Below, piece by piece: positions 11,227 to 37,660 of a stretch of 64,000 nt of DNA. The DNA lies in NCBI GenBank assembly GCA_005772855.1, contig SXIK01000166.1, positions 1 to 64,000 on the forward strand, in the 5' to 3' direction. The translations under genes were made by a program, and so were the position numbers. Below the pieces are notes generated by a model. The model was not told where the DNA came from, ran no database searches, and saw only the letters and a list, made by a program, of their open reading frames with translations. This DNA is from Planctomycetia bacterium. GTDB taxonomy: Bacteria; Planctomycetota; UBA8108; SXIK01. Each line of letters opens with the position of its first letter. Position 1 is the first letter of the stretch.

Positions 11227-11260
11227 TTCCTCCTGACGTTCTGTGCGGTACGATGTGCCC

Positions 11261-14200
11261 ATGTTCCGCTTGGTCTGGACTCGACGCCTTGCTCTGATCC
11301 CCGTCCTCTTGGGCGTTTTCGCGCCCGTCTTGATTAGCGGGCCTCCTGTGGATGCGAGCCCCATCGAAACCTTCGCGGAGAGCTGGCGCTGGCGACTCTT
11401 CGATCGGCGGGAGGGCCTCGCCTCAAGCTCCGTCTCCGCGCTTCACCAGGATCGCCAGGAGTACATTTACGTCGCCACGGAGAGTGGAGTGTCGCGTTAT
11501 GACTTTTGGGAGTGGAGTGTTCTTGAGAATAGCGAACCCTTTGACGACGGCGAGGTGAGCTGCTTCATTGAATCCCCAAGCGCGCTCTTCGCGCTGACCC
11601 AGAACGTGATCTGGAAGGTGCGGGGCGGAGCGACCCTTTCACCCCTGTACCGCGGGGGAGGCTTGCATGCCGCACTGAACGACCTGGGGGACATTTTTGT
11701 GATCGATTCGAAGGCAGGTCATCACCTCGCAATTCACGGGGAGTTGCTTGACCGCCTGGACGATGTTCGTCTCCCCACGGGGAAGGTCTTGAGCTACGAA
11801 ATTGATTCGAGCCGGATTCATTGGCTCGCTACCTCCGACGGCTTGTTCCAGAGAGACCTGGCTCGTCGATCGTGGCGCGAGGTCGAGGAGCGCGACCTCG
11901 GCTCGGGCCTCGCCGATCGAAAGTGTGTCAGCTTCTTTCGGTTGCAGGCTCGCGAGAATCCCCTCAACGAGGCTCAGGATCGAATGGAGGCGAAGAGCTC
12001 CTGGGTGAGCTTGGCGCTTTTTGTTGATCCCAGGTCCTCCGGGCAGATCCTCGCACGGCTTGATGGCTCTACCTGGACTCAAACGGCGGCGCTGAGTGGC
12101 TCCCGTGTGAAGCACATGATGCGAGACACTTTCGGCAATCAAATCGCAAGCACCGAAGATGGCCACTTGCTCCTCTCCCAGGACGCCCACGAATGGAAAG
12201 CGGTCTTGACGTTGGGTGTGGGGCGAACGGAACTCTACGGGGGTCTGCTCGACTCTTCCGGCATTCTCTGGTTTGCCACGAGCGCTGGCGGCGTGGCCTC
12301 GTTCGATGCGAGAAGCCGGGCATGGGAAGCCTTGCCGACGGGCACGAGGGAGGCGTTTCCCAAGGTCTTTTCCATCCTCGAGACGGATTCCGGCGACGTC
12401 TGGGTCGGCATGGCCCGGGGTGTCGCGCGCCTTCGGCAAGGCGAGCCACCGCTCACCTGGGAGCGAGTGCTGGACGTGCCGCTTGAGAAGGTGACGGGCC
12501 TTGCGGTCGATAGTTTGCAGCGGGTCTGGATCTCCTCCGCCGAATCCTTCAACGGTGCTTTTCACTTCGATTCGAGCGGCGAGGAGGGTTGGAGCAAGGA
12601 GGAGCACGATGGCTTCAAGGACCATCCCATCCGCCGGATCGTTGCTGATAGATCCGGCGAGCTTTGGTTTCTGTCCAAGGAGCCGCTGCCAGAAGGAGGC
12701 TACACGATTTACCGCCTTGGCCTCTCGACGGCCCACGAGCTGGCACCGACCGAGGTGCCGCACGGACCTGTCAACGACCTCGTTCAGGCCCACAAGGGCG
12801 GGGTGTGGCTTGCCACCGACGAGGGGTTGATTCACGCAATTCTTGAAGGTGATCGCCTCGTGGCGGACCAGCAGTACACCAACAAGAATGGTCTGCTGTC
12901 GTCGCAGGTGTGGGCGGTGACTGAAGCCGCCGACGGCGCGATCTGGGTCTGCTATCCGAGCTCTGGCGGAGGAGTGACCCGGATCCAGGACGGAGAGGTG
13001 AAGAGCTTTCAATACAGTGACGGCCTCGCGAGCCCGGACGTCTGGTCGATTGCCGCTGTCGGCTCGAGCATCTGGTTTGGGACGGGGCGAGGACTTTCAC
13101 GCTTTGACGGCGAATGCTTCTATAGCCACCCCATCGCGTCGATGGACTTTCGCAGCATCCGCGTGTGGCCCATCACGGCCTCACGACGTGACCCGGACTG
13201 CCTGCTCCTCGGGACGTATGGCCAGGGGGTTTTCAAGTACCGGCAGGAGGACCGCCGCCGACCTCGCTTCATCGCACACCAATTTCCCGCTGAAGTTCCG
13301 AGGTCAGGCAATGTCACCTTCGAGTGGGACGCGAGAGACTACCGAAATCAGACGCCCCATGATCTGCTCCTTTACCGCAACCGGTTGGATGGCGGAGCGT
13401 GGACTCGCTTTGGCGGCGGTCGTGCCCAGGACTTCAAGGGACTGGCTCCAGGCCAACACACGTTCGAGGTTCAGGTGCGTGACTCGGCCGGCAACAGAAA
13501 CCGGGAGGACCTGCTGCACGTCTTCAAAGTAGGTCGAGCTGGCGGAACGGGCTCGATTCTGGCCTGGCTGGGCATTGGTGCCGGCATGGTTGGAGCCGCG
13601 CTGGTGGCTTACTGGATGGTTCGAAGGCTTCGAGGGCTTCGCCGGGCGCAAAGGTATCGACGAGCCTTTACCGACTGCCCGAGCGCGGTTTTTATCGTCG
13701 ACGCTGACGGGCGAATCCTTGAATGGAACGGCAAGGGCAATGAGGTGGTGGGCGTGGACGGGATGAGCGTCACCGACATCCTCGGCCGTCCGCTCTCGCT
13801 CCTCCCGATCTTTTTCGGTGACGATCTCAAGGGAGAGCTCAGGGGCCTCCTCAGGGGCGTGCCCATGCGCAGAAAGAGGCGAGTCCCCGGCCCGGCGGGA
13901 CCCCTCGGCAGGATCGCGGCGATCCAGGGTTTTCCCATCGAGTCTGCTGCGGGGCGGGCCGTGGTGATCGTGGAGGACGAGACCAGCTCGGCTCAAAGGG
14001 AGATCCTGAACGAACGTGAGCGGCGCCTGTCCAGTCTCCGCCATCTGGCGGGTTGGTTCCTTTGCGACTTTGGAGACACACTTGGCAAGGCCCGCAGGGA
14101 TGGCGGGGCGAGCCTGGAACTCGTCGAAGGGCTCGAGCGGCTCGAGACGATTGCCCGAAAGCTCTCGTATTTCGCGGGCGAGATGGCGCCCGAGAGCATG

Positions 14201-14725
14201 AGCACCAACACCTCGGACGTGAGCGGTCTCCTCGAGCGGATCCTCGGTGGCAGTGGCTCGTCACCCACCCTCAGAAGGCCGTCCGGAGTCAAGGTCGACT
14301 ACCGCGCGCAGCCAGGGCTCTGGTCCGTTTCGATGGACGAGGTGCTTCTTGCTGAAGCCTTGCTCGAGGTGCTGCGCAACGCGGTGGACGCCCTTGGCGA
14401 TGGCGGAACTCTCAGCGTTCGCGCGCAAAATATTCGTCTGGAGGACGACCCCGGTCTCCTCTCCCCTGGTGCCTATGTCGAGGTCCTGGTGAAGGACTCT
14501 GGCGTCGGAATGGATCCGGTTCAGCTGGACCGGCTCTTCGAGCCGTTCTATTCGACGAAGCCGCGGACTCAGGCTCTGGGCGTCGGGCTCGCATCTGCCT
14601 ACGGCATCATTCGGGCGCATCGCGGGGATATCCGTGTCGAGTCGAAGACAGGGCAAGGTACGACCGTGCGGATCCTTCTACCAGCGAGCCACAGTGGCCA
14701 AGAACCCCGCGCCTTGCTGGCTTGA
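11261..14725 (+). CDS. Two-component regulator propeller sensor kinase with degenerate phospho-acceptor site
   Basis: 1154 residues from the ATG at 11261 (an in-frame GTG at 11243 is an alternative; neither has a good ribosome site). Order: signal peptide; periplasmic beta-propeller of Reg_prop repeats (about 40-640, repeated W-x-(G/A)T...GL-R-D patterns); Y_Y_Y-like domain (about 670-750); transmembrane helix (about 765-785); PAS-like domain starting RRAFTDCPSAVFIVDADGRI; then a dimerisation helix and HATPase domain. The ATPase N-box (LRNAVDALGDGG), G1 (DSGVGM) and G2 (GVGLASAYGI) are intact. At the place where relatives have LAGGIAHDFNN, this protein has LAGWFLCDFGD, so the acceptor His is Cys935. 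It may not autophosphorylate in the usual way. Confidence 0.9.
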   Translation: MFRLVWTRRLALIPVLLGVFAPVLISGPPVDASPIETFAESWRWRLFDRREGLASSSVSALHQDRQEYIYVATESGVSRYDFWEWSVLENSEPFDDGEVSCFIESPSALFALTQNVIWKVRGGATLSPLYRGGGLHAALNDLGDIFVIDSKAGHHLAIHGELLDRLDDVRLPTGKVLSYEIDSSRIHWLATSDGLFQRDLARRSWREVEERDLGSGLADRKCVSFFRLQARENPLNEAQDRMEAKSSWVSLALFVDPRSSGQILARLDGSTWTQTAALSGSRVKHMMRDTFGNQIASTEDGHLLLSQDAHEWKAVLTLGVGRTELYGGLLDSSGILWFATSAGGVASFDARSRAWEALPTGTREAFPKVFSILETDSGDVWVGMARGVARLRQGEPPLTWERVLDVPLEKVTGLAVDSLQRVWISSAESFNGAFHFDSSGEEGWSKEEHDGFKDHPIRRIVADRSGELWFLSKEPLPEGGYTIYRLGLSTAHELAPTEVPHGPVNDLVQAHKGGVWLATDEGLIHAILEGDRLVADQQYTNKNGLLSSQVWAVTEAADGAIWVCYPSSGGGVTRIQDGEVKSFQYSDGLASPDVWSIAAVGSSIWFGTGRGLSRFDGECFYSHPIASMDFRSIRVWPITASRRDPDCLLLGTYGQGVFKYRQEDRRRPRFIAHQFPAEVPRSGNVTFEWDARDYRNQTPHDLLLYRNRLDGGAWTRFGGGRAQDFKGLAPGQHTFEVQVRDSAGNRNREDLLHVFKVGRAGGTGSILAWLGIGAGMVGAALVAYWMVRRLRGLRRAQRYRRAFTDCPSAVFIVDADGRILEWNGKGNEVVGVDGMSVTDILGRPLSLLPIFFGDDLKGELRGLLRGVPMRRKRRVPGPAGPLGRIAAIQGFPIESAAGRAVVIVEDETSSAQREILNERERRLSSLRHLAGWFLCDFGDTLGKARRDGGASLELVEGLERLETIARKLSYFAGEMAPESMSTNTSDVSGLLERILGGSGSSPTLRRPSGVKVDYRAQPGLWSVSMDEVLLAEALLEVLRNAVDALGDGGTLSVRAQNIRLEDDPGLLSPGAYVEVLVKDSGVGMDPVQLDRLFEPFYSTKPRTQALGVGLASAYGIIRAHRGDIRVESKTGQGTTVRILLPASHSGQEPRALLA

Positions 14726-15196: not shown

Positions 15197-16642
15197 ATGA
15201 GCGAAGAGCCGACGCATCCACGGTTGGAGAAACGATCCAGAGCGCGCCGCAATCCCTCGCCGTCGACGTGGGTCGAGCTAGTTTGGCCAGGCAAGGCGGA
15301 CGCCCTTCGTCCCGGCCTTCTGGGGGGTGGCGGGACCCTTGAAGAGGTCGAGCGACACCCTGGCCATGGGCCCGGGATCCAGGACCGCAAGGAGTGGCGC
15401 AACCTCCTCGTCGCGGGCGACAACTTGCTGGCTGCCCATGCGCTTCAGCCAAGCCTCCAGGGCAAGATGGACGTCGTTTACATCGACCCCCCCTTTGCCA
15501 CGGGCGACGATCAGACCGCTGCGCTCGAGATTGGCGATGGCGGCCAGCGGAGCGCTCGATCCACGGTTGAGCCCATGCCGACGCGCATGGCTTACGCGGA
15601 TCGTTGGGGCCGCGACCTGGCGCCGTACTTGAACATGCTTGCGCCGCGGCTCGTTGCAATTCGGCCGCTTCTTGCGCCCGAGGGCTCGATCCTTGTCCAC
15701 GTCGACCGGCGCGTCGCCGCTTCCGTGAAGCTGCTTCTGGATGAGATCTTTGGCCAGGAGCGGCTCATCAATGAGATTATCTGGTGCTACACCGGCCCAA
15801 GCTCCCCGGGCATGCGGTCGTTCGCGAACAAGCACGACGTCATTTTCTGGTACGCAAACGGACCGCGCTGGACGTTCAACGTCGACTCGGTTCGCCTGCC
15901 CTACAACGCTAGCACCCGGAGAAACGAAGGACGTCGCACTGGCTTTACCACCGGTGACCCCAGCCTGGTTGTCAAACTGAACCCCAAGGGAAAGTTCCCC
16001 GAGGACTGGTGGAACATTCCTGTCGAGGCGCCCGCATCCTCGCGGCGCACGAGCTACCCGACGCAAAAGCCGGAGCGCTTGCTCGAACGCGTGATCCTCG
16101 CCGCGTCCAACGAGGGCGGGATTGTTGCGGACTTCTTTTGCGGCTCAGGAACGACCCTTGCGGTTGCGGAGCGCCTCGGCCGGCGCTGGATGGGCTGTGA
16201 TGCGAGCCCGATCGCCGTCCACACGACTCGCAAGCGCCTCCTGGGGCTCAAGGCCTGTGCGGCTTTCGACGTTCAGCGACTCGTGCCCGACGGCGATCAG
16301 GCTTCCTCGGTGCGAAGCCGTCACGCAGGGAGCTTTTCGTTCGCGCTTTCGGGGCGGACGTTCGAGCTTACCGGCTTTGATCCCGCGGGAGTGGACTTCG
16401 TGCCAGGGTGCGTCCGGTCGAGAATCAGCACCTGGTCGGACTGGATCGATTACTGGTGCGTTGATTGGGACTGGAACGGTGGCCCCGTCGAGCCCGACCT
16501 TGTTGCCTTCCGAACCCGACGCAAGCGAGCGCTGGAGCTCGCTTGTGAGGTGCCTTTCGCTCGAGGGCTCGCCGGGCGAATCGTGGTGAGTGTGGTGGAC
16601 GTGCTCGGGCGCGAGGCGACTCGCGTTATCGAGTCCTCCTGA
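15197..16642 (+). CDS. Orphan beta-class DNA methyltransferase (N6-adenine/N4-cytosine type)
   Basis: 481 residues, ATG behind GGGAG. The catalytic motif IV DPPF is at residues about 97-100 (in VVYIDPPFATG), and the SAM-binding motif I FCGSGT at about 313-318, followed by a GxDxSP-like strand; motif IV before motif I defines the beta class, as in type III Mod subunits and many solitary methyltransferases. The length and the C-terminal extension (about 350-481) fit the Mod-like group. No restriction subunit, helicase or specificity gene is adjacent, so it is an orphan enzyme by context. The usual role would be epigenetic marking or residual protection. The target site cannot be deduced. Confidence 0.9.
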   Translation: MSEEPTHPRLEKRSRARRNPSPSTWVELVWPGKADALRPGLLGGGGTLEEVERHPGHGPGIQDRKEWRNLLVAGDNLLAAHALQPSLQGKMDVVYIDPPFATGDDQTAALEIGDGGQRSARSTVEPMPTRMAYADRWGRDLAPYLNMLAPRLVAIRPLLAPEGSILVHVDRRVAASVKLLLDEIFGQERLINEIIWCYTGPSSPGMRSFANKHDVIFWYANGPRWTFNVDSVRLPYNASTRRNEGRRTGFTTGDPSLVVKLNPKGKFPEDWWNIPVEAPASSRRTSYPTQKPERLLERVILAASNEGGIVADFFCGSGTTLAVAERLGRRWMGCDASPIAVHTTRKRLLGLKACAAFDVQRLVPDGDQASSVRSRHAGSFSFALSGRTFELTGFDPAGVDFVPGCVRSRISTWSDWIDYWCVDWDWNGGPVEPDLVAFRTRRKRALELACEVPFARGLAGRIVVSVVDVLGREATRVIESS

Positions 16643-16851: not shown

Positions 16852-17439
16852 ATGTCACGGGGTCAAACGACACATGTACTGGTGGAGGCGGCGGCGGGCG
16901 GGGATGTGGACGCCCAGGGGCGGCTGTTGTCCCGCTTCGAGCCGGTACTCAGGAAGGCTGTCCAGAGTTCCCTGGGGCGTGACCGATTCCTCGCCGACGG
17001 GGAGGATCTCCTCCAGGAGATCCGCATGGCCGTCCTGCGTGCGCTTCCCGGGTTTCGCGGCCGCGACCGCGCCTCGTTTATTGCCTGGGTGCGGCAGGTG
17101 TCGACGACCAAGACCATTGATTGGGAGCGTCGGCGGCGGTCCGGGCGCAGGGCTCCGCGCCCCGGGATCGGCAGCCTTTCCGGCACGAATGCGCCCGAGC
17201 CAGCGGCGCGGGGGGACGCTCCCAGCCGGATGATCCTGCTCCGGGAAGAAAAAGAGCGGATCGGGCGCGCCATCGAGGCTGTCCCGGAGCAGTACCGGGA
17301 GGTCCTGCGGCTCATCGTGACCGAGTCTCCCGAGCCCGGAGAGCTTGCCGCGAGGCTGGGGCGCGGGCCCGAAGCTACTCGCAAGTTTGTGTCGCGGGCC
17401 CTGGCGGCGCTGCGCAAGGCCCTGCGCCAGCCGCACTAG
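16852..17439 (+). CDS. ECF-type RNA polymerase sigma factor
   Basis: 195 residues. Region 2 is visible as DGEDLLQEIRMAVLRALPGF followed by a F-I-A-W-V-R helix and a basic DWERRRR end (residues about 45-105). Region 4 is visible as VPEQYREVLRLI followed by an LAARLGRGPEATRKFVSRAL helix-turn-helix (about 145-190). The linker is Gly/Pro-rich. The ribosome site is weak (GGGA). The gene begins an operon with a membrane Ser/Thr kinase 81 bp downstream. ECF factors next to Ser/Thr kinases are known to be switched on by phosphorylation rather than by an anti-sigma factor (for example EcfP with PknT in Vibrio), and that is the inferred mode here. Confidence 0.9.
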   Translation: MSRGQTTHVLVEAAAGGDVDAQGRLLSRFEPVLRKAVQSSLGRDRFLADGEDLLQEIRMAVLRALPGFRGRDRASFIAWVRQVSTTKTIDWERRRRSGRRAPRPGIGSLSGTNAPEPAARGDAPSRMILLREEKERIGRAIEAVPEQYREVLRLIVTESPEPGELAARLGRGPEATRKFVSRALAALRKALRQPH

Positions 17440-17520
17440 CGAACCGAGGGAAAAAGTCTGTCCGGATCGGGCCGCCCCTGCGTCTCTGTCCTTGTGGTTT
17501 CAACCAACGGGTTTCAGTCC

Positions 17521-19236
17521 ATGTTCATGAAGATCCCAGGAGATCCCAACAAACCTTTCCTTCGCAACGGTACGCGGGATGGCTTGACCACGAGCCTCGA
17601 GGAGGTGGTCGGCATACTGGCCTCGAAGTATTGCCCCAGGTGCGGTACGCGCCGCCCGGTGGACGAGGGGGTTTGTCCGACGGACGGGACGGCCCTGCGG
17701 GATCTGTCCATCGCGACGGGGGTCGGCTGGGATTCCACCGGGCTCTCGGAGTTCACGGGGGGCACATCGCCCACGAGCCTCAAGGAGTGGATAGATGACC
17801 ATAATCCCGCGACCCTGCCCCCCGCCGATTTTCAGCTCTCGGAAGTTATCCTGGGCGGCAAGTGGAAGGTGGAGAAGCTCATCGGTGAGGGTTCCTTCGG
17901 CGCCTTCTTCCTGGGGCGCCACGTCACGCTCGGAATGCAGGTGGGGATCAAGATTCTCCGCAAACGGTTCACTCGCAGCGAGGCCGGCCTGCGTCTCTTT
18001 CACAACGAGGCCATGCGGCTCAGCCTGCTACATCACCCCCGGATTGTGCAGGTTCTCGACTACGGCGAAGAGGGTGACCGACCGTACCTGGTCATGGAAT
18101 TCCTCACGGGCACGCCTCTCCACCGCTTCCTCGGCGACAAGGCCTTCACCGTTGACGATGGTGTCGAGGTCCTCCGCCAGGCCGCCGAGGCCCTGATTGC
18201 TGCGCACAGGGGAGTGGGGATCGGCGAGCCGCTCGTGCACCTCGACCTGAAGCCCGAGCACATCTTCCTCGAGAAGATCCAGGGGCGCTGGCACGTCAAG
18301 GTCATCGACTTCGGCATCGCCGAGATCGCCGCGGCCCCCACGGATCCAGCGACCGATGAGCAGGCCGGCAAGTCAAGGAATCGTTTGGCCGGCACCCTGC
18401 CCTACATGGCACCTGAGCGCTGGGAAGGCATTGTTGATCCACGCTGCGACCTGTACTCGCTTGGCATCGTGCTCTATGAGATCGTCGCCGGGAGGAAGCC
18501 GTTCGACGTGTGGGACTCAGAAGCGATGCGAATCTTGCATTCCCGGGAGAAACCCACGCCGCCGAGTCGGCATCGCTTGACCTCCCGCGAGCCCGGGTTG
18601 AGGGAGCTCGATGCGATCGTCCTGTGTCTGCTCGAGAAGGACCCCGCCCGCAGGCCGCAGAGCGCGGAGGAACTGGTGGCGCTGCTTGAGCGGTGGCAAG
18701 AGCGGCCGAAGCTGACGGCGCGGCAGCGGCTTGTGCGAGCCTGTACGGTGCCGGCTGTGGTGCTGGTGTTGGCCCTGGGACTTGTCGCGTGGGGGCCGTG
18801 GGAAAGGATTTCCAAGATTCCGGCAATCCTTCTCGGGCCGGATGGTGCCAGTCTCAGCGTCGAGATCTTCGGCGTGGGCTACAATCGCGCAACGCTCCGG
18901 GTGATGAATACGCAACGAGAAGGCGAGCTCGATCTCGGCCCGATCTTGCCCGGAGATGGTCCCGTCGGCGTTTCGCTTCAACTCGACCAGCTCAAGGAAG
19001 CGATCGGCGCAGGCAGCGACGAGCCCGTTGAGGTCGAACTCAAGGCAAGGTACATGGCCCACGGACCGCTCGGTCGCGATCTCGCCTCGGAGCTAACCAC
19101 GCTCCACCTCGACGACCGCCCCCGGTGCTCCTCGAGATCAACGACCATGTGCCGCCTCAGCCCGGTGGGACGCTTCGACTCCTCAAGAGCGGAGATGGCG
19201 CTGTCAAACTGCGCATTCGGGCGGACGAGCCACTGA
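17521..19236 (+). CDS. Membrane Ser/Thr protein kinase, frame broken near its C-terminus
   Basis: 571 residues as read from the ATG at 17521 (GTG 17494 is an alternative). Order: partial zinc-ribbon with Cys38, Cys41 and Cys52 (fourth position Asp); kinase domain about 110-400 with glycine loop GEGSFG (122-127), Lys144, HLDLKPEH (240-247, HRD written HLD), DFG (263-265) and APE (297-299); one transmembrane helix near 405-430; then a short beta-rich extracytoplasmic part. After residue 533 the frame gives Ser/Arg/Cys-rich sequence of poor quality, whereas the -1 frame continues naturally into the 19125-21074 ORF. A full-length product would have about 1184 residues. Cause: a run of five C at 19119-19123. 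It is part of the sigma/kinase/FHA operon. Confidence 0.9.
   Translation: MFMKIPGDPNKPFLRNGTRDGLTTSLEEVVGILASKYCPRCGTRRPVDEGVCPTDGTALRDLSIATGVGWDSTGLSEFTGGTSPTSLKEWIDDHNPATLPPADFQLSEVILGGKWKVEKLIGEGSFGAFFLGRHVTLGMQVGIKILRKRFTRSEAGLRLFHNEAMRLSLLHHPRIVQVLDYGEEGDRPYLVMEFLTGTPLHRFLGDKAFTVDDGVEVLRQAAEALIAAHRGVGIGEPLVHLDLKPEHIFLEKIQGRWHVKVIDFGIAEIAAAPTDPATDEQAGKSRNRLAGTLPYMAPERWEGIVDPRCDLYSLGIVLYEIVAGRKPFDVWDSEAMRILHSREKPTPPSRHRLTSREPGLRELDAIVLCLLEKDPARRPQSAEELVALLERWQERPKLTARQRLVRACTVPAVVLVLALGLVAWGPWERISKIPAILLGPDGASLSVEIFGVGYNRATLRVMNTQREGELDLGPILPGDGPVGVSLQLDQLKEAIGAGSDEPVEVELKARYMAHGPLGRDLASELTTLHLDDRPRCSSRSTTMCRLSPVGRFDSSRAEMALSNCAFGRTSH
19119..19123 (+). other. Frameshift site in the kinase gene (run of five C)
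   Basis: In the kinase frame the codons are CGC CCC CGG TGC. Slipping back one base after CCC gives CCG GTG CTC CTC GAG, i.e. DDRPPVLLEI, which joins the two ORFs into one smooth beta-sandwich sequence. A single missing C in the assembly would give the same result. The P-site CCC can re-pair perfectly at -1, so true programmed slippage is possible. Confidence 0.7.
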
Positions 19237-21074
19237 ACGCTGGCCTCTGCACGCTCAATGATGTCCTGGCGAAGCCGGATGCGGCGGAGAAGGGTAGCCG
19301 GGATGCGGTCTTCGAGCTTCGGGAGGAAGCGTCCGTGGTGACGGTCCAGCTTTTTGATCGAGTCGGTAACCGTGCGGCCTGGAGCTGGCCGGTGGATTGG
19401 GGCAGCGCGCAAGCGCCGCGCTTGCTGTCGCTGGCCGACCGCCTGACGAACCAGTCAGACTACACGCTGGTCCTCGAATGGAACGAGCCGCCCGGCACGG
19501 TCAAGGTGACCGTCAACGAAGCTACCAGGGCCTTCACGGCCGCCAAGGAGGCCAATTCCCGCTGGCAGCTGAAGGTCCCTGTCGCTTTTGACGGCCGCGA
19601 GGATACGAAGTCTGCGCGCGTTCGGGTCGAGCCACCCGGCGGTGCGCCCTCGGGCGAGGACGAGATCCTGTTGGTGCGCTACTTGAGCCGCGACCTGGCC
19701 GTGAAGGAGGGGGTCGGAGAGAGGACCGAGGACAACCTCCCAGCTCTTTACGCCACCTCCGAGAACAACAAAACACTCAACGAAGACCTACACTGGGAGT
19801 ACCTGGTCATCTGGGAAGGTGGCGGTGGAGCGCACGGCTTCTCGAACAAGAAGCTTCGAGGCCCCGTCTTGCGGCTCGATGCCAGGCGAGACATGGATGA
19901 CAGACGCGGCAAGTTCGTGGTCCTGGCGGAGGTGAGCGACGACTTCGGCAATCGCAGCTCGTCATTCCAGATAGCTTTCGCCCACGGTGTCCAGGAGCCC
20001 ACGATCCAGAGGTTTGGCCTTGAAGACCAGCGCCAGCGCGTCATTCACCACAGGGACTGCCGCCTGAGCCAGGGCCTCCAGGGGAGGATCACATTCGCCT
20101 ACGAGGTCGCCTACGAGTATGGCATGAAGTCCCTCAACCCCGAGCTGTGGCTGGGGGAGCTTCCGCCGCTGGGTACCCCGGTAGTCATCGCCAGGACGGA
20201 AGAACAACCCGATCGGTTGGAGGTTCCGCTTGCAAGGCTGCGGGAGGTCCTCAAGGAAGGGCCCAACTCCCTCTTTTTGGTGGTCACGGACCCGAAGACC
20301 GGTAAGAAGGGTGTGAAGACCTGCACCTTGACCTACGAGGTTGCACCCTCCCTGAAGGTTACGCCCCAGGCGGGGAGGCCGTTGGGAAGTGACGAGGTGC
20401 GCGTCGTTGTCACCCCCGGCGGGTCCGCGGTCTCGACCGTCACGGTCACCGCCAGTGGTCAGCGGGTTCCCCGGCTCGGGCCAGACCTTGTCCATCGAGT
20501 GCCGCTCAACGCAGCAGGCAGGACGAGAGTCTTCGTGGAGGTCGAGTTCAGAAACGGCTGCCGTCTCACGAAAGAGGTCTCCTACTGTCGCGAGCCGATC
20601 GAGGAGCAGACCTATGTTTATGAGCTGGGTGCGGAGCGCCGGAAGCTCGAGCTGACCCATGCCAGGGGGCTGTGGTACACCCGGATGCAGGCGCCGGCCA
20701 CGCTCGCGCAGGCCCGGAATCAGGAGGCGTTGAGGGCCGCGCTCCAGTCCCTCCTCCAGAGCCTTCCCGGGCGCGCCGGGGTCTGGAAGCTCCGTCTCGC
20801 CTCCTTCAAGGAGCTGCAAGAGATCAGCCCAAATTTGCCACCGGGGAACGTTCACAAACAATGGGTGAGGTCGGAAGGACGAGAGTCCGGGGCCGAGCCC
20901 TTCCAGGGGTTCCACCCGTGTGCCGAGTGGAACGGGAGAGGGGTGCTGGAAGGTCGCGAGCTGGTGCGCGAGAAGCTGCCTTACCACCTCGTGCTCGAGG
21001 GTCCGGAGGAAGCCAGCAGGCTCCTTCCGAGCCTCGCAGTCGATAGCCACAAGAAGCAGGGGGGCAAACCATGA
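19125..21074 (+). CDS. Extracytoplasmic C-terminal part of the kinase (second frame)
   Basis: 649 residues from a GTG at 19125, but there is no ribosome site, no signal peptide and no membrane helix, although the sequence is of extracytoplasmic style: repeated beta-sandwich modules (for example around VTVQLFDRVGNRAAWSWPVD and VVLAEVSDDFGNRSSSF). This makes it most likely the continuation of the kinase protein across the frame break at 19119-19123, forming the sensor region outside the membrane. I do not recognise a named domain; the DxxGN patterns resemble Ig-like or PKD-like folds. Its stop codon overlaps the ATG of the lipoprotein gene (ATGA at 21071-21074), so translation is coupled downstream. 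Confidence 0.75.
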   Translation: MLLEINDHVPPQPGGTLRLLKSGDGAVKLRIRADEPLNAGLCTLNDVLAKPDAAEKGSRDAVFELREEASVVTVQLFDRVGNRAAWSWPVDWGSAQAPRLLSLADRLTNQSDYTLVLEWNEPPGTVKVTVNEATRAFTAAKEANSRWQLKVPVAFDGREDTKSARVRVEPPGGAPSGEDEILLVRYLSRDLAVKEGVGERTEDNLPALYATSENNKTLNEDLHWEYLVIWEGGGGAHGFSNKKLRGPVLRLDARRDMDDRRGKFVVLAEVSDDFGNRSSSFQIAFAHGVQEPTIQRFGLEDQRQRVIHHRDCRLSQGLQGRITFAYEVAYEYGMKSLNPELWLGELPPLGTPVVIARTEEQPDRLEVPLARLREVLKEGPNSLFLVVTDPKTGKKGVKTCTLTYEVAPSLKVTPQAGRPLGSDEVRVVVTPGGSAVSTVTVTASGQRVPRLGPDLVHRVPLNAAGRTRVFVEVEFRNGCRLTKEVSYCREPIEEQTYVYELGAERRKLELTHARGLWYTRMQAPATLAQARNQEALRAALQSLLQSLPGRAGVWKLRLASFKELQEISPNLPPGNVHKQWVRSEGRESGAEPFQGFHPCAEWNGRGVLEGRELVREKLPYHLVLEGPEEASRLLPSLAVDSHKKQGGKP

Positions 21075-22108
21075 ACCGTGCCAGCCGAACGTTTCTCTCG
21101 GCGGCCGAACTCCTCCTCGTCGCTGGTCTCCTGGGCTGCGCCTCGATGCCGCTCGAGCGCGCCAGGGTCCAGGGTGCGTCCCAGTTGCCGCCCTCCCTGA
21201 CCCGTTCCGTGGCGGTCACGGTTCAGCTCGACGCCGGGACGGAAAGTTTCTACGGGACAAGGGCCGAGTGGCTGGAGGACATCCACCGCACCCTCGAGGC
21301 GCTTGATGCTTGCGCCCAAGTCGTTCCGGAAGCGCAAGCGAACGAGGCGGACATGAGCGTGGCCGTCCAGCTCTCGCGCTCGGCTCCGGCCGAGCCGGAC
21401 ATTCAGACCACGGGAGCCTTCCTCGACTTTCTCGCCTGGAGCACCCTTCCGCTCCTGCCGCTGTGGATTCCCGACGTCAACGTGCAGCCGGAGCTGCACG
21501 TGCGGGTGACGAGGTCCCTCAGGTCGCTCGAGGGCAAGGCGACGGTTCTTTCGCCTGCGGAACACGATGCGGATCCTGTCTCGACTTCCTACCTCGATCG
21601 GCGTCCGTTCTTCTCCTGGCCGACCCTGGGAGCTATTTTCGTCCCGCCGTTTATCTTTAGCGGTGCGGATGCCGAGCACGTCGAGGGGGAAATTGGTGAA
21701 TGGGTGCGCGAGGCGACGGCGGTCCGGGTGGCCGAGATTGTGCGTGGCTCCCGGCGTGAGGACGGGGAGCTGCTCGAGGGCCTTCGCGTCCAGGGGGACG
21801 GCGCGTCCGGATCCGTTCTCGCCTTCACGTCGGGGCGCGGCCTGCGCAGGGTCGTTGCCCGGGTGGGCGACGAGAAGGTTGGACAAAAGGATCTGAAGCT
21901 CTCCGAGGCCGATGCGGCCCGGCCGACCGTGCACAGGTTGTCCCTGACTTTGAGCACCCGACGCGGCGCTCCCACGCACCTGAGCGTCATCGCCGTTGGC
22001 AACCGGCCCGGGCTGGCTCTGTGCTACACGGTCCGTGTTCCGCGAGAGGCCGTGGCGCCCTTGCGCCCGCGTTCACAACCCCCGGCCACGGAAGTCAGGA
22101 GCCCATGA
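21071..22108 (+). CDS. Predicted lipoprotein of unknown function in the kinase operon
   Basis: 345 residues. The N-terminus is a lipoprotein signal with lipobox LLGC (Cys near residue 23), so the protein is predicted to be lipid-anchored. Residues about 40-220 form an alpha/beta domain with a Trp/Pro-rich hydrophobic stretch (LDFLAWSTLPLLPLWIPDV) of the kind seen in curli/GNA1162-like lipoproteins, though I cannot assign it. The tail (about 235-330) is beta-rich. ATG overlaps the preceding stop (ATGA), and its own stop overlaps the next ATG (22105-22108), so it is locked into the operon and is probably an envelope partner of the kinase. Confidence 0.8.
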   Translation: MNRASRTFLSAAELLLVAGLLGCASMPLERARVQGASQLPPSLTRSVAVTVQLDAGTESFYGTRAEWLEDIHRTLEALDACAQVVPEAQANEADMSVAVQLSRSAPAEPDIQTTGAFLDFLAWSTLPLLPLWIPDVNVQPELHVRVTRSLRSLEGKATVLSPAEHDADPVSTSYLDRRPFFSWPTLGAIFVPPFIFSGADAEHVEGEIGEWVREATAVRVAEIVRGSRREDGELLEGLRVQGDGASGSVLAFTSGRGLRRVVARVGDEKVGQKDLKLSEADAARPTVHRLSLTLSTRRGAPTHLSVIAVGNRPGLALCYTVRVPREAVAPLRPRSQPPATEVRSP

Positions 22109-23022
22109 GGCCGCGATTCATCATTCTCAAGGGCTCGTCCCTGCCGCGGGAGATCGTCCCCGAGGGCGAGATGCTCGAGATCGGCCGGTCGCCGGAGGTC
22201 GGGATCGTCATCGCCGACGAATCGGTCTCGAGGCACCACGCCATCCTGCGGCGCGACGGCGAGGCCATCGTGCTCGAGGACCTTGGCAGCACTTTCGGAA
22301 CCTACGTCAACGAGGAGCCCCTCCCGTCCGGCGGGACCGTGCAACTGCAGGACGGCGACGTGGTCCGCTTCGGCCGGGTTCAAGTCGTCTGTCGTCTCGA
22401 GGACGACGAGAGCGATGCGACGACAGTGGCTTGTGATGCCGCCTTCGCGGCGCAGGCCAACGCCCGGATTGTCCTCCTTGAGGGCGAGCTGGTTCGGCGC
22501 TTTCCCATCGCAAGCCCGCTCACGCGCATCGGCGCCGCGGCCCACTGCGAGGTGCGGCTGCAGGACCGCGCCGGGCCTCTCGAGGCCGCGATCCTGCGCG
22601 CCGTGGGCGGGGCGTTCGAGATCGTCCCGCGCTCACGGACCACCTCGCCAAACCTCAACGAGGAACAGACGCCGATTCTCGAGGCGACGGTGCTCACGTC
22701 GGGCTCGGTGGTCCTGATTGCGCGGGCGCAACTTCTCTTTCTCTACGACTATGCGGCCGGCGGGAAACCCCTTGCCGACCCATTGGCACGGGTGCCGCGC
22801 GGAAAGCTGTTGCGGCACATCGCCGCGCAGACGCGGATTGCCACCCCGGAGCTGAAGCGCCTGGCAAGGTCCTATCATTCCGTGGGGCAGAATTTGGGTG
22901 AGGTTTTGGTCGAAAGGGGGCTGGTGACGCCGCTTTTCTGGCGGGTGCTCTGCTCCCGTTTGTCGGTGAGAGAGAGCCGCAAGGGCTGGTTCCGGTCGTT
23001 GTTTCACGGAGGTAACCGATGA
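22105..23022 (+). CDS. FHA-domain protein with second degenerate FHA and GspE-N-like tail
   Basis: 305 residues from the ATG at 22105 (ATGA overlap with the previous gene). FHA domain 1 (about 1-90) has the full phosphothreonine-binding signature: IGRSPEVG, SRHHA and a GSTFGTYVN loop. Residues about 120-225 look like a second FHA fold (LTRIGAAAHCEVRL...) that has lost the SxxH signature. The C-terminal 70 residues contain LGEVLVERGLVTP, like the N-terminal domain of GspE/PilB ATPases and the middle of the DUF4388 protein at 9410. FHA proteins read out Ser/Thr kinase phosphorylation, so this is the likely cytoplasmic receiver for the kinase encoded upstream. Confidence 0.9.
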   Translation: MRPRFIILKGSSLPREIVPEGEMLEIGRSPEVGIVIADESVSRHHAILRRDGEAIVLEDLGSTFGTYVNEEPLPSGGTVQLQDGDVVRFGRVQVVCRLEDDESDATTVACDAAFAAQANARIVLLEGELVRRFPIASPLTRIGAAAHCEVRLQDRAGPLEAAILRAVGGAFEIVPRSRTTSPNLNEEQTPILEATVLTSGSVVLIARAQLLFLYDYAAGGKPLADPLARVPRGKLLRHIAAQTRIATPELKRLARSYHSVGQNLGEVLVERGLVTPLFWRVLCSRLSVRESRKGWFRSLFHGGNR

Positions 23023-26000
23023 TCCGATGGGCTTCCCGGAAGGAGAGCGTCCCGAGGCGTTGTGTGATTTTGCCTGGACTCTTGGCTGTGCTTGGCGCTC
23101 TTCCCGGGTGTCTGTGGCTCTCGGGCACGATCACGGGGGTCGTTGCCACCCAAAAGAACAAGAGCCACGATCCCACGCCTTCCGAGCCTCTCTTGCCTGA
23201 TCCGGATCCGGTAGAGAGGCGGCCTGGGCCTTTCATACTCCTTGAAGGAAATCCGGTCGCGGTGGCGATTGGGAACTTCGTGGTCGGTGAAGTGGACACG
23301 ACGGAGGACGAGCGTCCGGCGAACGACGTCGCTGTCATCTTCGAGGGTGGCCAGCACATCTCCTTCTTCGAGGGAGACGGCGAGGGCCGTCTAAAACACC
23401 ACTCGTCGGTCCCGTTGAGGACACGCAACTCGGTCGCGATGGCAGTGGTGCCGCCGCTCCCCGGGGAGCCCCAGGGGCTCCTGGTCGCGACCTCACAAGT
23501 GCTTGAGCTTCTGGTGTGGAGCTCGACCGACAAGCGGATCGTTGTCTCATCATCTCTCTTTTTTGAAGGCAAGGCCGACCTCGTGCGTGATGTGATCACT
23601 CTCGACCACGACGCTGATGGGGTTCTTGACGTCGCGGTTTCGAGCCACGCCAACAACTGGGTCGAGTTCTTTCGACTGAGCCCGGATCGACTTCGCCTGG
23701 AGAGAATCTCCTCAGCGATCCTCCAGCTAAAAAACCAGCCGCTTTCCCTCACCGCAGCGGACTTCTTTCACGACGGCCGGGGTCAGAGCGACCTGGCGAT
23801 CCTCGCCGAGGAAGGCGCTCGCACGATCGTGCTTCTTCATTTATCGCGGCCGGGCGGCGTTTGGTGCGAAACCGCGGACGACAAGGCGGTCTTCGGCGAG
23901 CCGGGCCTCGGGCTGGCTCGAGGCGGCGACTATGACGTCGACGGCGACGGGAGCTCCGACATCGTCGCGAGTCGCTCGGACGGGATCGTGGCGGTGAGCG
24001 TCTCGCCACCTGTCGAGCTCGCAGGTTGTGGTCTCCAGAGTGCCACGAAGATCCTTACGGTTCGGGCGGGCTCTCGTCACTTCAGCCCGCGGCCCGCCGG
24101 AGTGGCTGCGTTGCACATGCCGGGTGGACTCCTGGAGACGTGGGACCGAGTGACGGTGGACGAACAGCTCAACGCGCTGGTCTGCTCCTACTATCCGCTG
24201 GGCGGTCGGAGGGCAGCCGCGACGGTCACCTACCCGCTTCCGGGAAAGGGGAGAGCCCTCGCCACGGGTGATCTCAACAGCGACGACATCGAGGACCTCG
24301 TCGCTGTGACCGTGGACCCAGTCGCTCCAGCGCTCTCGGTGCTCTTGGCACAAAGCCGTAAGCCTGTCTCGTTCAACGTGGAGAAAGAGAAGGATCCAGA
24401 GTACGTCTGGCGCCCACTTGTGGCCCCGTTTTACTACCCATTCGGAATCGCGGCCGGCGAGCCTTCGTCGCGGAGGCAGCCTCCCCGTCTCGGCCGCCTC
24501 GCCCACGGGTGGGCAGGCGAAGGTGACTCCGAGCCGTTTCTGGCTGTCGCTGACCGTGCCAATGAGGAGTTGGCCATTTTCTTCTTGGACCCGACGCCGA
24601 GCGATCTCCTGCGTGGCGATCAGGAGCGCTACGGTGGGCTCATCAACAATCCCATCGGCGTCAACGTGGGACATTTCGACGACGAACCTGGCGACGATAT
24701 TTTGGTCGGGGCCGAAAAAACCCTGCACTTTCTGCGCAACCGTGGAGCGGGAACGGAGACGAGGTTCGAGGTCGAGTCGATCCCGTTCGAGGAGCTGCAG
24801 GCCGCGGACCCTCACGTTCGAGATCTCGACTTTGGCGCCGACTTCGAGCTTCAGAACGCCGCCAAGGCGTTCCTCGATGACAACGAGTTTCTCGACGTGG
24901 CGGTCGCATTCAGATACTCCCTGGCAGACACCTTTACTGAAGCGACATGCCTTGAGAAGCCATGCCTGACGGTCCCCTGCGCCTTTCAGCGCGATGGCGA
25001 TGACGCCGATAAGGATGGCGACACTCAAGAGATCCTCCGCAATCCCGACGGATCCATGGTCCGAAAGGAAGCCAAGGCCCCAGTGGACTACGTGATCGTG
25101 ATCTTGAATCTTGGCGCACCGCTCGGGCATCCCGACCACCGCAAGGTGCGTTTCTACCGCGTGCCCAATTCTCCACGCGACCTCGAGCCGGTCAACCTCA
25201 ACGGGGACGTGGCGCTGGACCTGATCGTCGCTTGCGGAGGGGACGAGGTCGAAGGCACGAACGTCGTCTATCAATTGTTCGGGGATCCCGCAAAGCTCGG
25301 CGAGTTTTTCGACGACGCGTCGCCCGACCCCAAGGCGATCCACCCGATCGCGTTGTGCGGGCCCGACGGCGACAACGAGGACAAGTCCAAGGGCGAGACC
25401 GAGGGGATAGCGGACGTGTCCTCGAACAATAGCCCTGTTCAAGCCGCACGGTCCCAAAGCGAGGCGACATGGCCCTTGGTCGAGTGGATCCTCTCGTCGA
25501 ACCTGGGAGCGGTTCATGTCTATCAACGTACCGGCTCGGTTCCCGAGCCGGACGGGCGCTTGTCGCCAATCTTTGGCCGGCCGTTGCGTGTCGCGAGTGG
25601 TGACGATCCAGAGGGCATTTTTGTGTACGACTTCTTCCCGGATTCCGAGGGGCGTCTCGACCTCGCGGTCGACTTCGAGGCCGAAACGACGGGCGTGCTC
25701 TTCCTGCGCAACGACGGGGCCGTTCCGGGGGTAAACCCCTGGAGCGAGTCGGGTGATATTCTGCCCATCGGCGCTCCGCAGCACTTGGAGGTGATTCCGA
25801 GTGTTACCGACGCCCTCACGGTTGCCGTGTCAGGCCGCACGAACCAGCGAGTCGAGATCCTGCAGCAAATCGACTGCCCCGGGCCGTGCTCCTTTACCAA
25901 CATCACGTCGATTCCCCTCCTGCGGCCCAACGTGCCCGGCCACTTCAGCGGCTTCAGCGTCGCTTCGCGATCGAAGGGGGGGCTGGCTCTCGCGCTGCGT

Positions 26001-26996
26001 CTTGAGGACGGCGATCTCATCGGCGGAACGTTTCCGGTCGACGTGGGGCGGTTTCCCAGAGGTGACGAGGTCACACGGGATCGACTGCTTGCTCTGGAGG
26101 CGCTGGACTCCAAAACGTTCTTCCAGCGCGTGCTCATCGAGACGACCGAGAGCCCAAGCGCTGTGTGTCTCGGGAGCTTCTCGGGCTCTGGTCAAGAGGC
26201 TCTCGACCTTCTCGTTGCCGTCGACGGCGGCCGAACGATTCGGTGTCACCGAGGTCAAACGGACCCGAACATCCCCCCGGTCAGTCCCGGCGGAACCAGC
26301 GTGTTGCGGCTCGACGATCCGCTCCTCGACTGGTGCGCGGTCGAGCCCAGCGCGCTTCTTGTGGCGACCGAGGAGCGGGTCGAGCTTCACCAAGTCCAGG
26401 CGCTGTCCGGAACGAGCCAACCTCTCTGGAAATCCGCGGTCTTGGGTCCGCTTCTGCGCGTGGCGAAGGGTTGGACTTCCCCACGGCGCGAGCTTCCGCG
26501 CGACTTCTTCGTGGCCGCGCTCTTGAGCACACTCGTTCGTGTTGTAGCCCCGAGTGGCGCCTCAGTGGAGCTCCTGGCGGGCGCAGAGGAGCTTGGCGCG
26601 CTCGGGGTTGTCGACGTCAACGGCGACGGCCGCGATGACCTCGCCGTCGTCGAGAAGGGCGTGTCCCGGCTGCGGATCTTTCTCCAGAGCGGGCCCGAGG
26701 GTGCAATTGAGTTTACATCGAAGACCGCCGTTGGCTACCCGGGCTTCGCAGAGCCTGTCGACGTCATCGGCCTCGAGGCCAATGGCGACAAATATCGCGA
26801 TGTCGCGTTCGGCGCGAGAACCGGCGAAATCTTCGTGTTTCTTGGGAACGGCGTGGGCTCGTTCCAGCGGCCGGCCGTGATCTTCGCGGGGGCTGAGCTG
26901 GAGGGCCTGCGAGCGCACGATCTCGACGGCGACGGTCTGGACGAGATCCTCGCCGCGGTGGCGCACCCAGGGCTTGTGATTCTCCCGGGACGCTGA
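23019..26996 (+). CDS. Giant FG-GAP/VCBS-repeat lipoprotein
   Basis: 1325 residues; ATGA overlap with the FHA gene. A lipoprotein signal (LGALPGC) begins the protein. The body is made of repeats with calcium-type loops, e.g. DHDADGVLD, DYDVDGDGSSD, DLNSDDIED, DVNGDGRDD and DLDGDGLDE, as in FG-GAP/VCBS proteins that fold into integrin-like beta-propellers. Such proteins are exposed on the cell envelope and bind ligands or other proteins. A short acidic insert (DGDDADKDGD, about residue 660) is also present. As last gene of the sigma/kinase/FHA operon it may be a ligand-binding component or a structural output. Its last repeat (DLDGDGLDEILA...PGLVIL) is echoed in the small ORF at 27169-27498. 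Confidence 0.9.
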   Translation: MIRWASRKESVPRRCVILPGLLAVLGALPGCLWLSGTITGVVATQKNKSHDPTPSEPLLPDPDPVERRPGPFILLEGNPVAVAIGNFVVGEVDTTEDERPANDVAVIFEGGQHISFFEGDGEGRLKHHSSVPLRTRNSVAMAVVPPLPGEPQGLLVATSQVLELLVWSSTDKRIVVSSSLFFEGKADLVRDVITLDHDADGVLDVAVSSHANNWVEFFRLSPDRLRLERISSAILQLKNQPLSLTAADFFHDGRGQSDLAILAEEGARTIVLLHLSRPGGVWCETADDKAVFGEPGLGLARGGDYDVDGDGSSDIVASRSDGIVAVSVSPPVELAGCGLQSATKILTVRAGSRHFSPRPAGVAALHMPGGLLETWDRVTVDEQLNALVCSYYPLGGRRAAATVTYPLPGKGRALATGDLNSDDIEDLVAVTVDPVAPALSVLLAQSRKPVSFNVEKEKDPEYVWRPLVAPFYYPFGIAAGEPSSRRQPPRLGRLAHGWAGEGDSEPFLAVADRANEELAIFFLDPTPSDLLRGDQERYGGLINNPIGVNVGHFDDEPGDDILVGAEKTLHFLRNRGAGTETRFEVESIPFEELQAADPHVRDLDFGADFELQNAAKAFLDDNEFLDVAVAFRYSLADTFTEATCLEKPCLTVPCAFQRDGDDADKDGDTQEILRNPDGSMVRKEAKAPVDYVIVILNLGAPLGHPDHRKVRFYRVPNSPRDLEPVNLNGDVALDLIVACGGDEVEGTNVVYQLFGDPAKLGEFFDDASPDPKAIHPIALCGPDGDNEDKSKGETEGIADVSSNNSPVQAARSQSEATWPLVEWILSSNLGAVHVYQRTGSVPEPDGRLSPIFGRPLRVASGDDPEGIFVYDFFPDSEGRLDLAVDFEAETTGVLFLRNDGAVPGVNPWSESGDILPIGAPQHLEVIPSVTDALTVAVSGRTNQRVEILQQIDCPGPCSFTNITSIPLLRPNVPGHFSGFSVASRSKGGLALALRLEDGDLIGGTFPVDVGRFPRGDEVTRDRLLALEALDSKTFFQRVLIETTESPSAVCLGSFSGSGQEALDLLVAVDGGRTIRCHRGQTDPNIPPVSPGGTSVLRLDDPLLDWCAVEPSALLVATEERVELHQVQALSGTSQPLWKSAVLGPLLRVAKGWTSPRRELPRDFFVAALLSTLVRVVAPSGASVELLAGAEELGALGVVDVNGDGRDDLAVVEKGVSRLRIFLQSGPEGAIEFTSKTAVGYPGFAEPVDVIGLEANGDKYRDVAFGARTGEIFVFLGNGVGSFQRPAVIFAGAELEGLRAHDLDGDGLDEILAAVAHPGLVILPGR

Positions 26997-27168
26997 CAAC
27001 AAACAACCGTCGGAAAGAGAGGGGGTGCCTCGGATTGTAGGAGCGTAAGTTTCGGCGGCAGCCTGTAAGGCAGGAAGACTTTCAACGGCACTTGGTTCTG
27101 CTCCAGTGGGGTACTATCCCGAGGCGTTGCCTCTGACCCCGTGGTGCAGAATAACGCAGGATACTACC

Positions 27169-27498
27169 ATGGATCGAGCTGGCGGGAATCAGCTGGGAAT
27201 TGTGGGGCCCGCACTATTGGCCTTGACGTTGCCTCAGCGGCAAGTGTCCGGTCAGCTCTTCGAGAATCTGGAGGCGTTGGGAAGGCGGCTGGACGTCGGC
27301 CTTACCTCATCGGGTGGGCCGCTCGGGGGTCGCAGGGGAATCTCTGCGGGGGACTCGAACGGCGGCGGCAGGCCGGAGCTCGCGGCGAGCAACCTTGACG
27401 GTGACGGGAGGGATGAGATTCTCGCCACAGGCGGCGTCCCCGGGCTGGTCGCGCTCTCGTGCCGCGGATCCGTGCGCCAGGAAGGCGGCGGCCAGTGA
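27169..27498 (+). CDS. Small FG-GAP-like ORF, possible fragment of the upstream gene
   Basis: 109 residues from an ATG at 27169 with AGGA upstream; the open frame goes back to GTG 27106. The C-terminal part reads NLDGDGRDEILATGGVPGLV, a close echo of DLDGDGLDEILAAVAHPGLV at the end of the FG-GAP lipoprotein 350 bp upstream, preceded by a second motif DSNGGGRPEL. The N-terminal 70 residues are not recognisable and there is no firm signal peptide. Its TGA (27496-27498) overlaps the GTG start of the sigma gene (GTGA), which favours real translation. It may instead be the degenerate end of a duplicated FG-GAP gene. Confidence 0.5.
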   Translation: MDRAGGNQLGIVGPALLALTLPQRQVSGQLFENLEALGRRLDVGLTSSGGPLGGRRGISAGDSNGGGRPELAASNLDGDGRDEILATGGVPGLVALSCRGSVRQEGGGQ

Positions 27499-28073
27499 TC
27501 GGTGGTGTCGACGTCGCGCCCGAGCTGTTCGAACGGCTTTCGCGCGGCGACCCCGAGGCCTTTCGCGAGGTGTATGCGCGCTACGGTGCCCGCGTCGCCG
27601 CCATCGCTCGCCACCGCATCGGACGGCGCTTGCGGGCGCGCCTCGAGACCGTCGACCTGACCCAGGAGGCCTGGGCCGCAGTGGCCTGTGAGGCACCGAA
27701 TGTCGCCTTTGCGAACGAGAGGCAGTTCCTCGGCTGGATCGAGGGCATCGTCGAGCGCCGGGCACTGCGCGAGGCGCGGCGATGGAGCGCCCAACGCCGA
27801 CGTTTCGAACGCGAGGTCGCTGGCACCGACGCTGCCTCGTGTCCCGATGCGCGCGCCGAGCGGCCGAGTCAGGTTTTGCTGGTCAAGGAGGCGACCGCGA
27901 GGGTGTCGGTGGCACTCGCCCGCCTCGAGAGCGACGACCGGCGAGTCGTCGTCTTGCGCCTGTTGCTCGACTTGCCCTGGCGCGAGGTCGCAGCGGCGCT
28001 CGGCGTCGCCGAGGAGTGTGCGCAGATGCGTTTCACGAGAGCGCGGCGGCGGTTAGCAGAGCTCGCAGGCTAA
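27495..28073 (+). CDS. ECF-type RNA polymerase sigma factor
   Basis: 192 residues from the GTG at 27495, chosen because AGGAAGG lies about 10 bp upstream and because it overlaps the preceding stop (GTGA). Region 2: ELFERLSRGDPEAFREVYAR, then VDLTQEAWAAV and FLGWIEGIVERRALREARRW. Region 4: LARLESDDRRVVVLRLLLDL, then WREVAAALGVAEECAQMRFTRARRRL, a helix-turn-helix. It resembles the ECF-like sigma factors that are abundant in Planctomycetota. No anti-sigma gene is adjacent; the next gene encodes an exported phytase-like protein 118 bp downstream. The trigger is unknown. Confidence 0.9.
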   Translation: MIGGVDVAPELFERLSRGDPEAFREVYARYGARVAAIARHRIGRRLRARLETVDLTQEAWAAVACEAPNVAFANERQFLGWIEGIVERRALREARRWSAQRRRFEREVAGTDAASCPDARAERPSQVLLVKEATARVSVALARLESDDRRVVVLRLLLDLPWREVAAALGVAEECAQMRFTRARRRLAELAG

Positions 28074-37105: not shown

Positions 37106-37660
37106 ATGAGCGAAAAGGAGCTCAGTTTGGCCTTCAGGAGGGGTGAACGACAGGCCTTCGAAGAGATTGTCCGGGAGCACCAGTTCGTTGTGCATGGCTT
37201 CGTGCGAGCCCGCGTCCTTCAGGCACCGGTTGCCGAAGGCCTCACGCGGGAGGTCTTTCTGAGGTCCTTTGCGGCCAGAAGGAGCTTGACCGCCGAGGCA
37301 AAGCTTCGACCCTGGCTCCTCGGGATCGCTCGCAGCGTGCTGAAGGAGCGAGCGAGGCGCCTTCTTCCACGCAGGGATGCGGTCTGGACAGACCTCTGTC
37401 TGGAGCTGGACGATCTCGTCAGGATGAAGGACTCGACGCTGGATGCCTTGCTTGCCTGCGTTCCTGGTTGTCTCGAGTCGCTCGGACCGCCTGTGCGTCA
37501 GGTTGTCGAGCTTTACTATTCAGGCCATCTTTGTCCACAGGAGATCGGCTCCAGGATTCGGCGAAGCGAGAGCGCCGTGAAGCTCCTGCTTCTCCAGGCT
37601 CGTCAGGCGCTCCTCCTGTGCATTGGCTCCAAGTGCGAGGACCCTGGCCGTGACCGATGA
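37106..37660 (+). CDS. ECF-type RNA polymerase sigma factor (divergent)
   Basis: 184 residues, ATG at 37106 (GTG 37100 alternative). Region 2: AFRRGERQAFEEIVREHQFV, then LTREVFLRSFAARRSL and LRPWLLGIARSVLKERARR. Region 4: LGPPVRQVVELYYSGHLCPQ, then EIGSRIRRSESAVKLLLLQARQALL. The region 2.2 acidic DxxQE motif is degenerate (EGLTREVF). It starts 17 bp after the FMN reductase stop and overlaps the giant membrane protein gene by 11 bp, so the two are translated together. An ECF factor followed by a one-span membrane protein is the usual sigma/anti-sigma pair. Confidence 0.87.
   Translation: MSEKELSLAFRRGERQAFEEIVREHQFVVHGFVRARVLQAPVAEGLTREVFLRSFAARRSLTAEAKLRPWLLGIARSVLKERARRLLPRRDAVWTDLCLELDDLVRMKDSTLDALLACVPGCLESLGPPVRQVVELYYSGHLCPQEIGSRIRRSESAVKLLLLQARQALLLCIGSKCEDPGRDR

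Follow-up and report, generated by a model that had tools for sequence, protein, structure and literature searches.

A recurrent planctomycete gene cluster of ECF-type sigma factors, a Ser/Thr kinase, two predicted lipoproteins and an FHA protein

Pairs of ECF sigma factors and Ser/Thr kinases form an established class, whose hallmark is a kinase gene adjoining the sigma gene, several of the groups being planctomycete (PMC8999054, PMC8103513). Direct phosphorylation of the sigma factor has been demonstrated for EcfP and EcfK, and members of ECF43 lack the acidic motif of region 2.2 (DAED) and gain the charge by phosphorylation (PMC8999054, PMC13147305). Kinase-linked groups outside ECF43 may work differently, having the residues for RNA polymerase binding. 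Because these factors keep such residues, the way in which kinases control them is described as an open question in PMC8999054.

A locus that bears on this question lies in a stretch of 64,000 nucleotides from the genome of a Planctomycetia bacterium (contig SXIK01000166.1; hereafter the window, meaning the whole stretch analysed). As in ECF43, a sigma gene (sigma1, 16852-17439) adjoins a Hanks-type kinase gene (from 17494). Such pairing is ordinary in this genome, which holds 35 ECF-like matches, 44 kinase matches over the cut-off and ten cases of a sigma and a kinase gene within 3 kb of each other; an FGE domain lies near five of these ten pairs. What the locus adds is the conserved lipoproteins, the FHA protein and a further sigma factor. 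The cluster, present in uncultured Planctomycetota, is conserved and uncharacterised, a variant on the ECF-sigma/Ser-Thr-kinase theme, and within the open-licence literature no paper on this combination of genes was found. It shows how the pairing frequent in this genome can be elaborated, and it offers a candidate link (the FHA adaptor) and, in the pair of lipoproteins, candidate inputs, all open to joint testing.

The operon and its proteins

The preliminary description, made from the DNA letters, had proposed a five-gene operon of sigma factor, kinase, lipoprotein, FHA protein and FG-GAP lipoprotein. The operon is real: the five reading frames lie where they had been placed, all on one strand, and a check of the starts found that the ATG codons at 21071, 22105 and 23019 each overlap the preceding stop as ATGA, just as claimed. 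The operon, the positions and the domains thus stood; an unbroken kinase frame and the end of the unit at 26996 had to be given up, and a GspE-like tail found no support beyond a short motif. The kinase is spread here over two open frames (17494-19236 and 19125-21074), and a second ECF-type sigma gene, sigma2, missed in the first reading, follows at 27495-28073 and begins with a GTG that overlaps the stop before it as GTGA. These ATGA/GTGA overlaps recur in G001 and G012, two of the four further genomes of the class that carry the cluster (G001, G003, G005 and G012), and they imply a predicted single transcript with coupled translation. The features are as follows.

16852-17439, + strand: sigma1, ECF-type sigma factor of 195 aa (Pfam Sigma70_r2, TIGR02937, orthologues)
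17494-19123, + strand: Ser/Thr kinase, N-terminal part (Pfam Pkinase 4e-37, motifs, hydropathy; start codon uncertain)
19119-19123, + strand: run of five C at which the kinase frame breaks (frames on either side; alignment to the single-frame kinase of G001)
19124-21074, + strand: Ser/Thr kinase, C-terminal part, an Ig-like ectodomain with a possible degenerate FGE-like end (tblastn to G001, the second copy of G005 and G012)
21071-22108, + strand: small predicted lipoprotein, whose family has no Pfam model (lipobox-like LLGC, alignments)
22105-23022, + strand: FHA protein with FHA1, a degenerate FHA2 and a short tail (Pfam FHA, invariant columns, hhalign)
23019-26996, + strand: FG-GAP repeat protein of 1325 aa, a predicted lipoprotein (FG-GAP_3, lipobox-like LPGC, homologues in G001, G003, G005 and G012)
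27106-27498, + strand: reading frame containing what remains of the C-terminus of a further FG-GAP protein (identity to the terminus of the FG-GAP protein of G005)
27495-28073, + strand: sigma2, second ECF-type sigma factor (TIGR02937; homologues in the G001, G005 and G012 clusters)

Upstream of the operon lie a Reg_prop beta-propeller/PAS histidine kinase of 1160 aa (11243-14725) and a DNA methylase of the N6_N4_Mtase family (15197-16642), neither of which was seen in the conserved cluster. Farther downstream, the G+C content drops from about 0.63 to 0.55-0.58 between 52000 and 60000, possibly a region of different origin.

Both sigma factors are of the ECF type, with only the sigma2 and sigma4 domains (domain names, distinct from the protein sigma2) and TIGR02937 scores of 62.1 bits for sigma1 and 62.9 bits for sigma2, over the cut-off of 42.9. 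Sigma1 matches Sigma70_r2 (3e-6), scores 71 bits against the planctomycete subfamily TIGR02984 of NCBIfam (under its cut-off of 184) and is 30-53% identical to its orthologues in G001, G005, G003 and G012. Its region 2.2 keeps the acidic residues (DGEDLLQE); G-E-D-L-Q is invariant in four sigma1 proteins, that of G012 reads GDDLLQ, and the loss of the acidic DAED with Thr in its place, typical of ECF43, is absent. Given that region 2.2 is acidic in all five genomes, sigma1 does not fit the EcfP/ECF43 switch, and EcfP-type activation was rejected on this ground. The linker between the sigma2 and sigma4 domains carries a Ser in sigma1 of all five genomes; such a Ser is also frequent in the other ECF factors of the window's genome, so its conservation proves nothing and it was set aside as evidence of a phosphosite. 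The homologues of sigma2 in the G001, G005 and G012 clusters are 57%, 51% and 31% identical, respectively. In the reading frame ahead of sigma2, positions 27391-27459 align with the C-terminus of the FG-GAP protein of G005 (74% identity over 23 residues), and FG-GAP_3 matches weakly (0.007). The sigma2 homologue of G012 (L055 8035-8460), with its frame open, is missing region 2.2, the contact part for the RNA polymerase core, and may have a role other than that of a sigma factor. Elsewhere in the window, at 37154-37615, a third and weaker ECF-like match (40 bits, below the TIGR02937 cut-off) precedes an open reading frame of 1490 residues.

The N-terminal part of the kinase comprises a zinc-ribbon-like motif (CPxCG...CPxDG), the kinase domain, a transmembrane segment and the start of the ectodomain, the one strong hydrophobic segment following the kinase domain. 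Hanks-type features are present, namely the catalytic Lys (VGIK), HxD (HLDLK), DFG and APE. The HRD arginine and the catalytic-loop asparagine are missing, which makes the loop non-RD: it reads HLDLKPEH in the window, G001, both copies of G005 and G012, and HLDLKPEN in G003, so that the usual Asn is replaced by His in all clusters but that of G003. Kinase activity is not assured, given the non-RD loop and the His in place of Asn. The G001 kinase, one unbroken frame of 1251 aa, aligns to 17596-19122 and then, in another frame, to 19158-21053; a programmed frameshift was rejected because the frame is single in the relatives and the site is no more than a run of C.

The C-terminal part of the kinase shows no PF03781 match over the Pfam cut-off, either in the window or in five relatives. 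Against the FGE profile, hhalign gave a local alignment (P 7e-5, probability 63%), and the region aligns to the RLPTEAEWE motif of the FGE domains of this genome, which is suggestive, not proof, of an ectodomain ending in a degenerate FGE-like domain. A Big_13 match (6e-4) falls below the cut-off. The model of the ectodomain is of low confidence (pLDDT 54) and for this reason was left out of the fold search, its better-predicted parts being beta-rich in agreement with the weak Big_13 match; a PDB sequence search found no relative of the ectodomain.

Both lipoproteins are predicted as such from a lipobox-like signal with its cysteine (LLGC in the small one, at its start, and LPGC in the FG-GAP protein) and an N-terminal hydrophobic segment; together with the hydrophobic segment of the kinase, these speak for the envelope reading. 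Were the +2 rule of E. coli to apply in Planctomycetota, both would go to the outer membrane. The small lipoprotein (21071-22108) has no Pfam match, a sequence profile search returned nothing, and among PDB folds none reached E <= 0.001, PelC and LptE appearing only weakly. The FG-GAP protein carries FG-GAP_3 repeats in three stretches (87.8 bits, 7e-25).

In the FHA protein, FHA1 (Pfam FHA, 4e-23) has an intact predicted phosphothreonine-binding site, its residues R28, S42 and N69 being invariant in four orthologues. Pfam matches thus agree with the identities first given to the sigma factor, the kinase, the FHA protein and the FG-GAP protein. Of the two FHA folds proposed earlier, the first is certain, and the second is supported by hhalign (probability 96%, P 1.6e-9, 97 columns) and by two orthologues in which Pfam marks two FHA stretches; FHA2 is degenerate, without the residues that read phosphothreonine. 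The GspE-like tail is not supported beyond a short GExLVExGLVTP motif shared with GspE-type proteins of this genome, with no MshEN match: the tail has no Pfam match to PF05157, and hhalign gave P 0.1 for that domain and P 0.003, probability 10%, for the segment preceding the GspE-type domain.

Recurrence among relatives

Relatives were searched with the FHA protein and with the small lipoprotein as queries, and the order of the five genes turned out not to be confined to the window. It is identical in two other genomes of the order: G001 (sigma1, kinase, lipoprotein, FHA, FG-GAP, followed by sigma2) and G003 (sigma1, kinase, lipoprotein, FHA, FG-GAP). Permuted versions occur in two more genomes of the class, with the FG-GAP gene before sigma1 in G005 (FG-GAP, sigma1, kinase, lipoprotein, FHA, sigma2) and between sigma1 and the kinase in G012, which belongs to another family and has no FHA gene in the cluster (sigma1, FG-GAP, kinase, lipoprotein, sigma2). 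The same gene families thus come together in four other genomes, a recurrence beyond chance, and the identical order in G001 and G003 with the permutations in G005 and G012 makes a functional unit well supported on comparative grounds.

A second locus of G005 consists only of kinase, lipoprotein and FG-GAP protein. Outside the class, in G043 (L056 6467-11000), a kinase that clearly contains an FGE-sulfatase domain (PF03781) is followed by an open frame for a member of the small-lipoprotein family. In every locus seen, including copies without nearby sigma genes, the small lipoprotein lies directly after the kinase; kinase and lipoprotein are the apparent core, and the FHA protein and sigma2 are not universal. 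The lipoprotein is present in four of ten genomes of the order, 5/29 of the class and 6/392 of the phylum. A scan of a named collection with the lipoprotein alignment, which detects only sequences with the chosen peptide patterns, matched only three Planctomycetota MAGs, two of them groundwater by name, and a named-genome scan with the FHA protein gave no match. In G005, a short reading frame (L040 11752-12297) matches the small lipoprotein over its N-terminal part at E 3e-10 and is probably a piece of an additional copy. At another place in the genome of the window (G000:C223), a weak lipoprotein match (E 5e-5) disappeared with a better profile and was dropped.

The FG-GAP protein is the most diverged part (25-32% identity). 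The sigma1, kinase and FG-GAP proteins of G003 are more distant from those of the window than the G012 copies are, yet G003 is the closer relative, and transfer or old duplication in the history of the cluster is therefore possible.

Possible routes from envelope to transcription

What held of the earlier interpretation is the functional unit, with envelope signalling and a sigma factor as output as its natural reading. Its "complete chain" is not obligatory, as the G012 cluster lacks FHA and the second copy of G005 has neither an adjacent sigma gene nor FHA, and "new system" was too strong for a variant of an established pairing. Our leading reading, evenly poised between right and wrong, is a conserved cassette for signalling from the envelope to transcription, of the ECF-sigma/Ser-Thr-kinase type, to which two lipoproteins and an FHA adaptor have been added. 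Sensing across the envelope would fall to the kinase and the small lipoprotein, taken as the core because they occur together in every locus seen, and the more variable FG-GAP lipoprotein would be the outermost, ligand-contacting or surface part, if it is not an output rather than a sensor, as it may be. On a signal, the kinase would phosphorylate itself and/or the sigma and FHA proteins; FHA1 would dock the FHA protein on phosphothreonine, joining kinase and sigma1 or freeing sigma1, which would then direct transcription, possibly including that of its own operon. The acidic core-binding residues being present in sigma1 already, any phosphorylation would act on its availability or on some other step rather than supply a missing charge as in EcfP. 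Coupling of kinase and sigma factor could reasonably be assigned to the FHA adaptor, though not in general, given the G012 cluster, and sigma2 might be a second, less essential output or a modulator. Against this cassette stand the absence of a nearby FHA gene in G012, the non-RD loop and the broken kinase frame of the window. We regard as doubtful the stronger claim of a distinct system, in which the lipoprotein and the FG-GAP protein would be the outer sensor of a non-RD kinase, FHA would couple it to a polymerase-competent ECF sigma factor without charge-supplying phosphorylation, and sigma2 would be a further output.

Another route would be a direct switch, with the kinase phosphorylating sigma1 as in EcfP/PknT and EcfK/PknS and the FHA protein merely a scaffold or a brake on the kinase. 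The adjacency of the sigma and kinase genes and the FHA-less cluster of G012 speak for it, as does the conserved linker Ser of sigma1, since EcfK is also phosphorylated in the sigma2-sigma4 linker (PMC13147305); such a Ser is, however, common among the other ECF factors of this genome, and region 2.2 of sigma1 still has the acidic residues missing from EcfP (PMC8999054), so that we consider this route unlikely, a little more so than the distinct system.

Two further explanations seem less probable still. Both lipoproteins could be products under sigma control, parts of a surface or adhesion structure, with the kinase sensing through its own ectodomain. The mobility of the FG-GAP gene within the cluster and its divergence would accord with this; the fixed place of the small lipoprotein behind the kinase, even without nearby sigma genes, would not, and we hold this explanation to be quite unlikely. 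Most improbable of all is that the system is decaying and non-working in this genome, as the frame break within the kinase and the FG-GAP remnant ahead of sigma2 might suggest: all other frames are long and intact, and a single break in a run of five C, in a draft assembly of 244 contigs, is at a usual site of sequencing or assembly error.

Comparison with described systems

The elaborated cassette shares with EcfP/PknT of Vibrio parahaemolyticus and EcfK/PknS of Xanthomonas citri, both of group ECF43, a sigma gene adjoining that of a Hanks-type kinase that spans the membrane and has a periplasmic part. It differs from ECF43 in the acidic region-2.2 motif, which sigma1 retains, and from EcfP/PknT and EcfK/PknS in its FHA and lipoprotein partners, none being named for those two systems in the parts of the reports considered. 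With kinase/FGE-sulfatase fusion proteins it has in common a kinase, a transmembrane segment and a C-terminal FGE-sulfatase-like part, although in the family of the window this part lies under Pfam detection and is degenerate if real. There is also a likeness to ECF59, ECF61, ECF62 and ECF217 (PMC8999054), in which a sigma gene lies beside a Ser/Thr kinase gene in a planctomycete host; in keeping with these groups, no anti-sigma gene was recognised in the cluster and the acidic region 2.2 is kept. In gene content, the locus goes beyond these four groups by two lipoproteins, one constant and the other of the FG-GAP type, by an FHA protein and, often, by a further sigma factor.
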